Positions 48,803 through 54,949 of a DNA stretch of 64,000 nucleotides are shown here, in pieces; position 1 is the first letter of the stretch; each line of letters begins with the position of its first letter. The notes under the pieces are model-generated. The model saw nothing but the letters and a program-made list of their open reading frames with translations. It searched no databases and had not been told where the DNA came from. The translations under genes were made by a program, and so were the position numbers. The DNA is from Isoptericola sp. AK164 (GTDB lineage Bacteria; Actinomycetota; Actinomycetes; Actinomycetales; Cellulomonadaceae), in assembly GCF_029643425.1 (NCBI RefSeq), contig NZ_CP119106.1, positions 930,001 through 994,000 on the forward strand, read 5' to 3'.

Positions 48803-49684
48803 ATGAGCGGCGCGAACCAGGGCCGACCGCCGTCGGCGCGGGCCCGGGCCCGGCAGGACTACCGCCGGGCCCAGCACCGCCGTGCCCTGCTCGTGGCCGC
48901 GGTGGCGACCGCCGTCGTGCTCGCCGCCGTCGTCGCCGTCGTCACCACGGCCCCCGGCTGGGAGCGGGCCCGGGAGGCGTTCTTCTCCCCGGAGCGGGCC
49001 TGGGAGGTCCTGCCCGAGGTCGCCGAGGGGCTCTGGCTGAACCTGCGCGTGTGGGTCGTGGCCTCCGTCGTCGGACTGACCGTCGGGCTGCTCCTCGCCG
49101 TCGTGCGCACCTCGCGGCTGCCCGCGCTGTTCCCCGTGCGGGTGCTGACGGTGCTCTACGTCGACGTCTTCCGCGGCGTGCCGGTGCTGCTGGTGCTGCT
49201 GCTGGTCGGGTTCGGGCTGCCGGCCCTGCGGCTGGAGTGGCTGCCGGTCAGCGCGGCGTTCCTCGGGGGCCTGGCCATCGTGCTCACCTACACCGCCTAC
49301 CTCGCCGAGATCTTCCGCTCCGGGATCGAGGCGTTGCACCCCTCGCAGGTGGCCGCCGCCCGGTCGCTGGGCCTGACCCGCGGCCAGACGGTGCGCCGGG
49401 TCGTGCTGCCGCAGGCGGTCCGGAACGTCTCGGCGCCCGTGGCGAGCATGCTGGTCTCCCTGCAGAAGGACTCCGGGCTGATCTCGATCCTCGGCGCCGT
49501 GGACGCGATCCGGGCCGCGCAGATCGCCACCACCGGCGACTACAACTTCACGCCGTACGTGGTCGCGGGCGCGCTGTTCCTGCTGGTCTCGATCCCGCTG
49601 ACCCGGCTCGTGGACGCCTGGTCGGCGCGCCAGGGCTGGCGCGGCTCGCTGCGCGGCGTCAGCGGGGCGGGGGTGGTCCGATGA
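48803..49684 (+). CDS. amino acid ABC transporter permease (HisM/GlnP type)
   Basis: 293 residues: one N-terminal helix, a periplasmic segment, then the five-helix permease core (about 75-280). The EAA loop is AARSLGLTRGQTVRRVVLPQAVR, which docks on the ATPase. LNLRVWVVASVVGL and YVDVFRGVPVLL are typical for the polar amino acid class. Overlaps the ATPase start by 4 bp (ATGA). Confidence 0.92.
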   Translation: MSGANQGRPPSARARARQDYRRAQHRRALLVAAVATAVVLAAVVAVVTTAPGWERAREAFFSPERAWEVLPEVAEGLWLNLRVWVVASVVGLTVGLLLAVVRTSRLPALFPVRVLTVLYVDVFRGVPVLLVLLLVGFGLPALRLEWLPVSAAFLGGLAIVLTYTAYLAEIFRSGIEALHPSQVAAARSLGLTRGQTVRRVVLPQAVRNVSAPVASMLVSLQKDSGLISILGAVDAIRAAQIATTGDYNFTPYVVAGALFLLVSIPLTRLVDAWSARQGWRGSLRGVSGAGVVR

Positions 49685-53288: not shown

Positions 53289-53747
53289 TCAGGCGGCGGC
53301 GAGCTGCTCGACGATCTGGCGCTTGGCGCGGGTGAGCATGCCCGTCATCCCGTTGAGCCGCAGCGCGGAGACAGCCCGGGTCAGACCGAGCTGCAGGGGG
53401 AAGTCCTCGGGGACGTCCAGGACCTGCCGGGGCGTGAGCCCGGACAGCCCCTGGGCGAGGATCGAGGCGAACCCGCGCGTCGTGGGGGCCTCCGGGGGCG
53501 CGGTGGCGTGGAAGTGCACGACGCCGTCGCTGACCTCGGCGAAGGCGTGCACGGGGGACTGGCACTCCTCGACCTTCTCCAGCAGGGCGGGCGAGTCGGC
53601 GTACCGGGCGGGCAGGTCCGGCAGCTCGCGGGAGAACTCGAGCAGGAGCTGCAGCCGTTCGGACTCGGTCAGGGCGAGGAAGTCCTCGCGGATCTCGGCG
53701 AGCTGCTCGGGGAGCTCGGGCGTGGGCTGCGCGGCGTCGTCGGTCAT
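53289..53747 (-). CDS. sufE: SufE-like sulfur acceptor
   Basis: 152 residues. Persulfide-carrying C62 in VEECQSPVH, preceded by FSRELPDLP and followed by the GFASILAQGLSGLTPRQVL helix pair: a complete SufE/CsdE fold. SufE takes sulfur from a cysteine desulfurase for Fe-S assembly. ATG with GAGACT 6 nt upstream (leaderless). An open frame extends upstream through the repeat array, but I reject it as coding. Lies downstream of a sulfurtransferase on the same strand, a common actinobacterial pair. Confidence 0.92.
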   Translation of the reverse strand: MTDDAAQPTPELPEQLAEIREDFLALTESERLQLLLEFSRELPDLPARYADSPALLEKVEECQSPVHAFAEVSDGVVHFHATAPPEAPTTRGFASILAQGLSGLTPRQVLDVPEDFPLQLGLTRAVSALRLNGMTGMLTRAKRQIVEQLAAA

Positions 53748-53775
53748 GGGTCCAGTCTCTCGTAGCGTGCGTCCG

Positions 53776-54000
53776 CGAGGTAGGCAACGGTCCCGCGAGG
53801 TAGGCAACGGTCCCGCGAGGTAGGCAACGGTCCCGCGAGGTAGGCAACGGTCCCGCGAGGTAGGCAACTTCTCGGCGAGGTAGGCGAGCCGCCTACCTCG
53901 CCGAGAAGTTGCCTACCTCGGCCCGGGGTTGCCTACCTCGGCCCGGGGTTGCCTACCTCGGCCCGGGGTTGCCTACCTCGCGGGAAGGATGCCTACCTCG
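53776..54000. repeat. mirror-symmetric array: 6 + 6 copies of a 10-bp repeat at 20-bp period
   Basis: CGAGGTAGGC occurs at 53776, 53796, 53816, 53836, 53856 and 53876; its reverse complement GCCTACCTCG at 53891, 53911, 53931, 53951, 53971 and 53991. Spacers are exactly 10 nt. Left spacers are AACGGTCCCG four times, then AACTTCTCGG; right spacers are CCGAGAAGTT, GCCCGGGGTT three times, then CGGGAAGGAT. The inner 30 nt on each side (53856-53885 and 53891-53920) are a perfect inverted repeat around GAGCC. Whole array is noncoding, between the sulfurtransferase stop and the sufE promoter. Confidence 0.95.
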
Positions 54001-54043
54001 CCGGGGGAGCGCCGGGGGAGTGCGGGCCTCCGGGGGAGGAGGG

Positions 54044-54949
54044 TCAGGCCGCGGGAGCCTCGCCGGACTCCTCGCCCGCGACGATCGGCACGCGCACCGC
54101 GTTGCCCCACTCGGTCCAGGAGCCGTCGTAGTTGCGCACGTCCGGGATGCCGAGCAGGAAGTGCAGGGCGAACCACGTGTGGCTGGACCGCTCGCCGATC
54201 CGGCAGTACGTGATGACCTTGTCCTCGTCGGTGATCCCGAGGCCGCCCGCCTGGTAGATCGCCTCGAGCTCGGCCCGGGGCTTGTACGTGCCATCCTCGG
54301 ACACGGCGGTGGCCCACGGCACGTTGTGCGCGGTGGGGATGTGCCCGCCGCGCAGCACGCCCTCCTCCGGGTAGTCGGGGATGTGCAGCCGCTCGCCGGT
54401 GAACTCCTGCGGCGAGCGGATGTCCACGAGCGGGCCGTGGCCCAGGTGGGCGAGCACGTCCTCCTTGAAGGCGCGGAAGGTGACGTCGTCGCGCTCGACG
54501 GCCGGGTACTCGGCCGGCGTCGGGGTCGGGGCGTCGGTGGTGAGCTCGCGGCCCTCGGCCACCCACAGGTTGCGGCCGCCGTCGAGGAGTCGGACGTCGG
54601 CGTGGCCGAAGAGGGTGAAGACCCAGGCGGTGTACGCGGCCCACCAGTTGTTCTTGTCGCCGTAGAGCACGATGGTCGTGTCACGGGCGATGCCCTTGGA
54701 GCCGAGGAGCTCGGCGAAGCCGGGGCCGTCGAGGTAGTCGCGCTCGACGGGCAGCAGCAGGTCGGTGTGCCAGTCGACCTTCACGGCGCCGGGGATGTGG
54801 CCGGTCTCGTACAGGAGCACGTCCTCGTCGGACTCGACGACCACGAGGCCCGGGTCGTCGCGGTGCTCGGCGAGCCACTCGGTGGTGACGAGGCGCTCCG
54901 GGTGGGCGTACTCCTGGAGCCGCGGGGTGGGGTCGAGCGGTGCGGGCAT
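54044..54949 (-). CDS. sseA: thiosulfate/3-mercaptopyruvate sulfurtransferase (tandem rhodanese)
   Basis: 301 residues with two rhodanese domains (about 20-140 and 160-295). The active-site loop in the second domain is [10 protein letters not shown] with C249; CRxGxR is typical of the thiosulfate group (CysA2-like). Transfers sulfane sulfur to cyanide or other acceptors. ATG with AGGAGG 5 nt upstream. Codirectional with sufE, but the 12-repeat array lies between them. Confidence 0.93.

Follow-up and report, generated by a model that had tools for sequence, protein, structure and literature searches.

The stretch analysed here, hereafter the window, comprises 64,000 nucleotides of the Isoptericola sp. 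AK164 genome and contains, between a sulfurtransferase gene and sufE, an array of twelve short repeats mirrored about its centre. The array is one member of a repeat family scattered outside genes in Isoptericola and a few related genera. Such arrays probably act as gene-end modules of an unusual kind, stopping transcription. The features of the locus are the following.

53776-53885, plus strand: arm of six CGAGGTAGGC units at a 20-bp period, with spacers AACGGTCCCG (four times) and AACTTCTCGG
53886-53890, no strand: centre GAGCC between the innermost units; G at 53886 and C at 53890 can pair, leaving 3 nt
53891-54000, minus strand: arm of six CGAGGTAGGC units, in sense with the rhodanese gene, whose end is at 54044
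53856-53920, no strand: innermost perfect inverted repeat of 31 + 31 nt, the part with complementary spacers
54044-54949, minus strand: rhodanese-type sulfurtransferase gene, transcriptionally upstream of the array (open reading frame list and Pfam PF00581)
53289-53747, minus strand: sufE, downstream of the array (gene call and Pfam PF02657)

The preliminary description had proposed a mirrored six-plus-six array of a 10-bp repeat and a 10-bp spacer, and this anatomy was borne out: all 12 copies of CGAGGTAGGC between 53776 and 54000, six per strand, are exact, successive copies lie 20 bp apart in each arm, and the innermost copies start 15 bp apart. As also described there, the outer spacers are uniform on each side and unlike across sides (AACGGTCCCG four times against AACCCCGGGC three times, each in its own sense), and the Pfam matches agree with the two neighbours that it had named. 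The array lies 43 nt from the rhodanese stop codon and 28 nt from the sufE start codon as called. Its innermost arms, 53856-53886 and 53890-53920, are 100% complementary over 31 nt across a 3-nt gap. With at most one mismatch allowed, the window holds 31 matches to the 10-mer (mean of 100 shuffles, 7.1; largest, 15). The sole exact 10-mer outside the array in these 64 kb is a lone CGAGGTAGGC on the minus strand at 49295-49304. The proposed RNA hairpin was recovered as a prediction, the region 53740-54040 folding at -232.8 kcal/mol (z = -13.1 against 100 dinucleotide shuffles), and no U tract flanks the array on either side. The statement that no named element has this form also held, both in Rfam 15, where all 14 matches to 53600-54150 at E ≤ 1 fell under the gathering score, and in the literature searched, a search with the bare octamer being too unspecific to weigh.

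Tandem pairs of the form GAGGTAGGC N11 GAGGTAGGC occur 161 times in the 3.58-Mb AK164 genome (90 forward and 71 reverse; control, 0), and all of them fall within 75 arms of at least two units each, at 48 sites. These arms were read in 952 kb that contain every one of the 161 exact pairs. The family unit consists of a conserved octamer followed by 12 nt, the AK164 consensus being CGAGGTAGGC AAC and then a pyrimidine-rich stretch. Using an array finder that permits pitches of 19, 20, 21 and 40 only, we found a pitch of 20 in 264 of 275 AK164 intervals, of 21 in 4 and of 40 in 7; pitch 20 likewise accounts for 52/55 intervals in G001, 216/233 in I. chiayiensis and 78/79 in G013, and in genus g8 8 of 44 intervals measure 21 bp. 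Arms were counted as paired when at most 150 bp apart: 25 of the 75 AK164 arms have no opposite arm within that distance, and -2 to 95 nt separate the paired arms of the 25 two-armed arrays. One-armed arrays hold the pitch in 91 of 92 intervals. In several arrays the last unit before the loop is CGAGGTAGCAC.

Growth by duplication is visible in the arms, within which AK164 spacers are 6.2/10 alike, against 5.0 between arrays. The complementary central spacers of the preliminary description, present in the 31 + 31 nt of the window, are not general: mirrored spacers score 4.97/10 over the 25 two-armed arrays versus 4.98 between arrays, and their likeness is clearly raised at the innermost rank only (mean 5.7/10; 5 of 24 at 9 or 10). 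As a whole, that reading thus stands for anatomy and neighbours but not for complementary spacers as a rule of two-armed arrays. The copy numbers of the two arms are uncorrelated (rho 0.27, p = 0.19), and the repeats recur in blocks of one, two and four units. Spacers of one-armed arrays are more alike (0.73), indicating that some of these arrays are recent copies. The longest one-armed array (L063, AK164 70489-70718) has 12 near-identical units, and its first TAG is the called stop of the preceding gene. Higher-order repeats are seen at 3156644-3157138 (L096-L097; 15 + 6 units with a recurring four-unit pattern) and at 2924440-2924711 (L085; 9 + 5 units with a two-unit alternation). At 2715742-2716039 (L082) a GC-rich terminator-like hairpin lies between array parts, as it does in the I. 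chiayiensis locus.

Arrays are placed behind genes. Gene contexts, which rest on an in-house ORF caller, were assigned to 71 AK164 arms, of which 42 lie in convergent, 14 in ++, 15 in -- and none in divergent gaps. Divergent gaps make up 0 of 47 AK164 gaps with arrays versus 141 of 514 array-free gaps (p = 3e-7), and they hold 0 of 16 classed arms in G001 and 0 of 72 in I. chiayiensis. An arm follows a gene of its own sense in 60/71 cases in AK164, 12/16 in G001 and 63/72 in I. chiayiensis, counts that include arms in convergent gaps, for which the rule holds automatically; among one-armed arrays in AK164 ++ and -- gaps, 9 of 11 are in sense (p = 0.065). Two one-armed plus-strand arrays, at AK164 2516298 and 3050454, are flanked by minus-strand genes, contrary to this orientation. 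Wherever an AK164 gap holds both arms the plus arm precedes the minus arm, so that they converge (26/26), and the same order was found in 22 of 22 cases at I. chiayiensis loci and, within 400 kb of G001, in 5 of 5. Among 60 same-sense AK164 arms, 21 have a first-unit TAG that doubles as the called stop codon, and 1 has a second-unit TAG that does so; the corresponding first- and second-unit counts are 13 and 5 of 63 in I. chiayiensis and 4 and 3 of 12 in G001, TAG making up 88 of 700 stop codons in the sample. At 20 loci of genus g8, 7 of 24 same-sense arms supply the stop codon through the TAG of their first unit, and 4 further arms were scored as intragenic, the gene there running to the TAG of the second unit. 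In 400 kb of G013, 24 arms comprise 12 in convergent, 5 in --, 4 in ++ and 2 in divergent gaps and 1 within a called gene; 17 of 23 are same-sense, and 1 of 6 neighbouring pairs has the order minus then plus. Abutting minus-then-plus pairs also appear among the pairs listed for G010 and G013.

The predicted hairpin is general among two-armed AK164 arrays, all 25 of which fold strongly (z from -5.9 to -17.3, mean -10.7, letter shuffles), whereas 23 of the 25 one-armed arms, each of at least three units, showed no strong fold (mean z -0.5, lowest -3.7). A mini-hairpin in each unit (GAGGT...ACYTC) was rejected, as it had no support in minimum free energy against column-shuffled spacers: for the 20-nt unit in sense, -3.64 observed versus -3.39 (sd 0.16) in AK164, -3.62 versus -3.65 in I. 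chiayiensis and -3.18 versus -3.56 in G001. A long hairpin with selected spacers was likewise rejected because the outer spacers do not covary. We also counted strong hairpins separate from the arrays in AK164 convergent gaps, the array-free comparison set being convergent gaps of at least 40 bp. Such hairpins occur in 3/15 two-armed, 5/11 one-armed and 58/70 array-free gaps, a deficit relative to array-free gaps of p = 6e-6 and p = 0.012 for two-armed and one-armed gaps, respectively; had gaps retained their terminators and simply gained arrays, about 83% would be expected to have one. When array-free gaps were cropped to the free lengths, the deficit was not significant (observed, 3; expected, 4.4, sd 1.4). 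Over all gaps a separate hairpin was present in 10/22 one-armed versus 4/25 two-armed cases (p = 0.053). A cruder first version of the comparison had given 7/22 versus 54/65.

The preliminary description had suggested searching for the 10-mer at its 20-bp period in other genomes. The 10-mer-pair pattern was found in 2 of 118 genomes searched, AK164 and G017, the latter being I. chiayiensis (13/13 test 29-mers) and of the same genus; the part kept across genomes is the octamer and not the 10-mer. A scan of GTDB contigs returned 54 stretches with the pattern, 52 of them from I. chiayiensis. A stretch from an Acidobacteriota MAG (L011) contains only a single pair of copies at the 20-bp spacing. 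Pairs of the form CGAGGTAG N12 CGAGGTAG are present in 35 of 221 genomes of the family (controls, 0), including 11 of 18 Isoptericola genomes with 14 to 286 pairs each, 16/17 genomes of genus g8, 1/1 of g12 and 4/7 of g23, while three more genera gave a single hit apiece; in g8, 14 of 20 loci, chosen partly for this form, are compact 2 + 2 palindromes. Order-wide, 7 of 396 genomes have such pairs, the two outside the family having 1 and 3 hits, and phylum-wide only AK164 does (1/396), with single control hits in 5 genomes.

A second word, CGAGTCAG, sharing the frame CGAG..AG with CGAGGTAG, occurs at the same pitch in G013 (249 pairs), G010 (201) and G002 (55) and in 0 of the other 15 Isoptericola genomes. 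Family-wide it is found in 5 of 221 genomes, the remaining two having 2 and 1 hits, with single control hits in 3 genomes. Pairs of both words occur together in 0 of 18 Isoptericola genomes, and four of the 18 (G003, G005, G009 and G014) have pairs of neither word; searched more loosely with CGAGNNAG, they yielded 1, 1, 0 and 0 hits versus 1, 2, 0 and 1 in the control. A de novo search for exact 9-mers at pitch 20 detected arrays in AK164 and in G001, in the latter with CGAGGTAGCGC, and none in the G011 and G002 samples; a looser scan found arrays in the G002 sample and none in that of G011. In a midpoint-rooted tree of the sseA-sufE locus (3.9 kb), G002 is sister to AK164 (support 99/99) and G010 and G013 form a separate pair. 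The users of CGAGTCAG are thus placed apart, and on that one-locus tree the word either switched two or more times or passed from one lineage to another. A viral origin was rejected: the triple word at 20-bp spacing occurred in two viral contigs as 10-bp microsatellites (L248:2513 and L249:10752) that match through their period, and no CGAGTCAG triple was found in viral contigs. An assembly artefact is unlikely, as arrays occur in assemblies of 11 species, in three of these at shared sites.

At orthologous sites the sequences indicate that spacers have turned over and the core has been kept. The sseA-sufE gap of I. chiayiensis (G017) holds a 6 + 6 array (4 + 4 exact cores) with different spacers, that of G006 has CGAGGTAGT units at 20 bp, and several Isoptericola have other inverted repeats there or almost no gap. 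The other repeats, at L121, L122, L125, L128, L133 and L134, are of GGTCGGCAGTCC and GGTCGAGCCTGTCGAGACC types, and the one in G010 is longer; this suggests that gene-end palindromes are particular to individual genomes. Close relatives lacking the array with no change in position or expression had been named in the preliminary description as evidence against it. Relatives lacking it at this place exist: read by eye, G002 has no array between sseA and sufE, and in G008, G009, G012, G013 and G015 the gap measures only about 13-32 nt. The two genes as a pair therefore do not require the array. Among the 48 AK164 sites, 26 match an I. chiayiensis locus, which demonstrates sharing and not its rate because all but one of the I. 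chiayiensis loci were picked for holding arrays. Four AK164 sites were located in G001, two of them with the octamer and a different 3′ half, and three in the G002 sample, two empty and one with a CGGGTCAG/CGAGTCAG array whose arms converge. Over 40 orthologous arm pairs, spacer identity was 0.514 versus 0.518 (sd 0.011) under random pairing, and core identity was 0.94, with detection that favours intact cores.

Multi-site binding, mRNA decoupling of the two genes, and slippage had been raised as roles or origins of the array, and each is still a candidate, as is termination. The reading we put forward, tentatively and at somewhat below an even chance, is that the family is a lineage-specific bidirectional gene-end or terminator module made of phased words. 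As RNA, the two arms would form a long hairpin in which the words of one pair with those of the other and the stem is interrupted between them; since the same word is present in every unit, they are complementary whatever their copy number or spacers. This hairpin would end or protect transcripts arriving from both sides, replacing an ordinary terminator hairpin, and a putative genome-wide process, either a recognition protein or copying between loci, would keep one word per genome. Anatomy, dispersal, placement, arm order, conservation of word and pitch, spacer turnover and the mutual exclusion of the two words among 18 genomes are observed, and the folding is predicted; termination or 3′-end protection and the word-keeping process are inferred. 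Several observations run against a hairpin module: one-armed arms do not fold yet hold the pitch, outer spacers lack covariation, arm copy numbers are uncorrelated, the cropped control is not significant, and the window array has no U tract. Genus g8 has 21-bp intervals, and G013 has divergent, intragenic and minus-then-plus arms. Moreover, pairing by itself needs no single word across genera. That unfolded one-armed arrays keep the pitch favours a factor that reads phased words, whether in addition to the hairpin or in its place. Under a further reading that we regard as doubtful, the arrays would form a genome-wide punctuation system with one word per genome, in which a single putative factor reads the 20-bp-phased arrays behind genes; word and reader would have switched together between CGAGGTAG and CGAGTCAG at two places on the genus tree, 20-bp geometry and gene-end placement persisting.

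Alternatively, the arrays may be rows of double-stranded sites, two helical turns apart, for a putative DNA-binding protein that assembles along them and acts at gene ends as a transcription road-block, a topological insulator or a gyrase-type site; gyrase-type and topological roles have been proposed for E. coli BIMEs. The phasing of partnerless, non-folding arms argues for such a protein, as do the retention of the octamer over genera while the rest of the unit varies, the outer spacers without covariation, and the absence of any genome among the 18 with both words, as recognition specificity would give. However, a road-block has no need of converging arms, and the 21-bp intervals of genus g8 (8 of 44) count against it; we place this explanation second, as unlikely though not far-fetched. 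We judge it rather improbable that the family is a selfish or neutral REP/MITE-like repeat that accumulates behind genes, where it does least harm, and grows by slippage, its word families being replaced in waves. In its favour, arrays in the CGAGGTAG genomes read keep clear of coding DNA and divergent gaps, blocks of one, two or four units are repeated, 4 of 18 genomes have no array of either word, and 2 of the 3 sites located in G002 are empty. Core and pitch, however, are kept despite spacer turnover at AK164 sites matching I. chiayiensis loci, which is not what neutral decay gives; no such arrays were found in viral contigs, and a Y1/RAYT transposase match was obtained in 0 of 18 genomes, the control being positive in 5 of 14.

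Two further explanations carry little weight. A signal for DNA uptake or another form of self-recognition, with dialects that differ by species as in the DUS of Neisseriaceae, would account for one word per genome, the shared frame and the inverted pairs at gene ends, but copies number in the hundreds and not thousands, nearly all in intergenic arrays, and just 18 exact 10-mers in the 952 kb of AK164 lack a neighbour; this is very improbable. Hardly credible at all is a three-frame stop-codon trap, in which the TAG of each sense CGAGGTAG unit, at a 20-nt pitch (2 mod 3), would cover all frames within three units. The first-unit TAG that serves as stop in about a third of same-sense arms fits such a trap, but a spacing of 19 or 22 bp would be equally serviceable, and the CGAGTCAG genomes contradict it: their word has no stop in its sense strand, yet pitch is identical and placement largely so.

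By form and distribution the family falls among dispersed extragenic repeats. Di Nocera et al. 2013 (PMC3733652) describe GTAG REP elements and BIMEs as repeats scattered outside genes, for the most part behind a gene and in convergent or unidirectional gaps, which form inverted pairs and belong to genus- or species-specific families. The Isoptericola arrays resemble them in being dispersed and extragenic, in lying behind genes and rarely between divergent genes, in their inverted pairs, in their genus- or species-specific families, and in GTAG within one of the two words. Unlike the REP unit described there, which is palindromic, single and 20-40 bp long with an unpaired GTAG tag at one end, the 20-nt Isoptericola unit is not palindromic, and its GTAG lies inside the pairing word and is absent from CGAGTCAG. 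Mobilisation by RAYT (Y1 transposase, PF01797) was rejected on the transposase search above; with no RAYT found and a unit that is not palindromic, the repeat is not a REP. A term search of the main text of a 2025 REP survey (PMC12306157) retrieved neither Isoptericola nor Cellulosimicrobium. Neisseriaceae DUS have dialects and form inverted pairs at terminators (PMC3630211); the short word, species dialects and inverted pairs are shared, but the Isoptericola words stand in phased arrays, in hundreds of copies, and are not spread over coding DNA. Clustered-hairpin intrinsic terminators are described in PMC8355165 as hairpins close behind stop codons for which poly A/U trails are not necessary; compared with those clusters of local hairpins, the Isoptericola arrays repeat one word in register genome-wide. 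A stable hairpin behind the gene, as in intrinsic terminators, was predicted for all 25 two-armed arrays and not for the 23 one-armed arms, and a U tract after the hairpin was absent from the window array, the one scored. CRISPR spacers are long and unique, whereas those of the arrays are 10 nt, often repeated within an arm, and stand in two opposite arms. At plasmid origins, an iteron array is a single locus of direct repeats that share a conserved core and are spaced by about two helical turns, with a replication protein. The Isoptericola arrays share the direct repeats, the spacing and the conserved core, but they occur at 48 gene-end sites, many with opposite arms.

Extragenic palindromic repeats are already known in many bacteria. 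In this family, word and 20-bp pitch are fixed and the filler evolves freely, which makes the constrained parts of the repeat readable. Mutually exclusive words in sister species make the reading of the word in trans directly testable, and likewise how a new word comes to occupy dozens of scattered loci in a genome. Should the arrays end transcription, they would represent a terminator design that tolerates changes in copy number without losing pairing; if they are read as genome-wide punctuation, dozens of loci would have come to carry a new word with geometry and placement unchanged.
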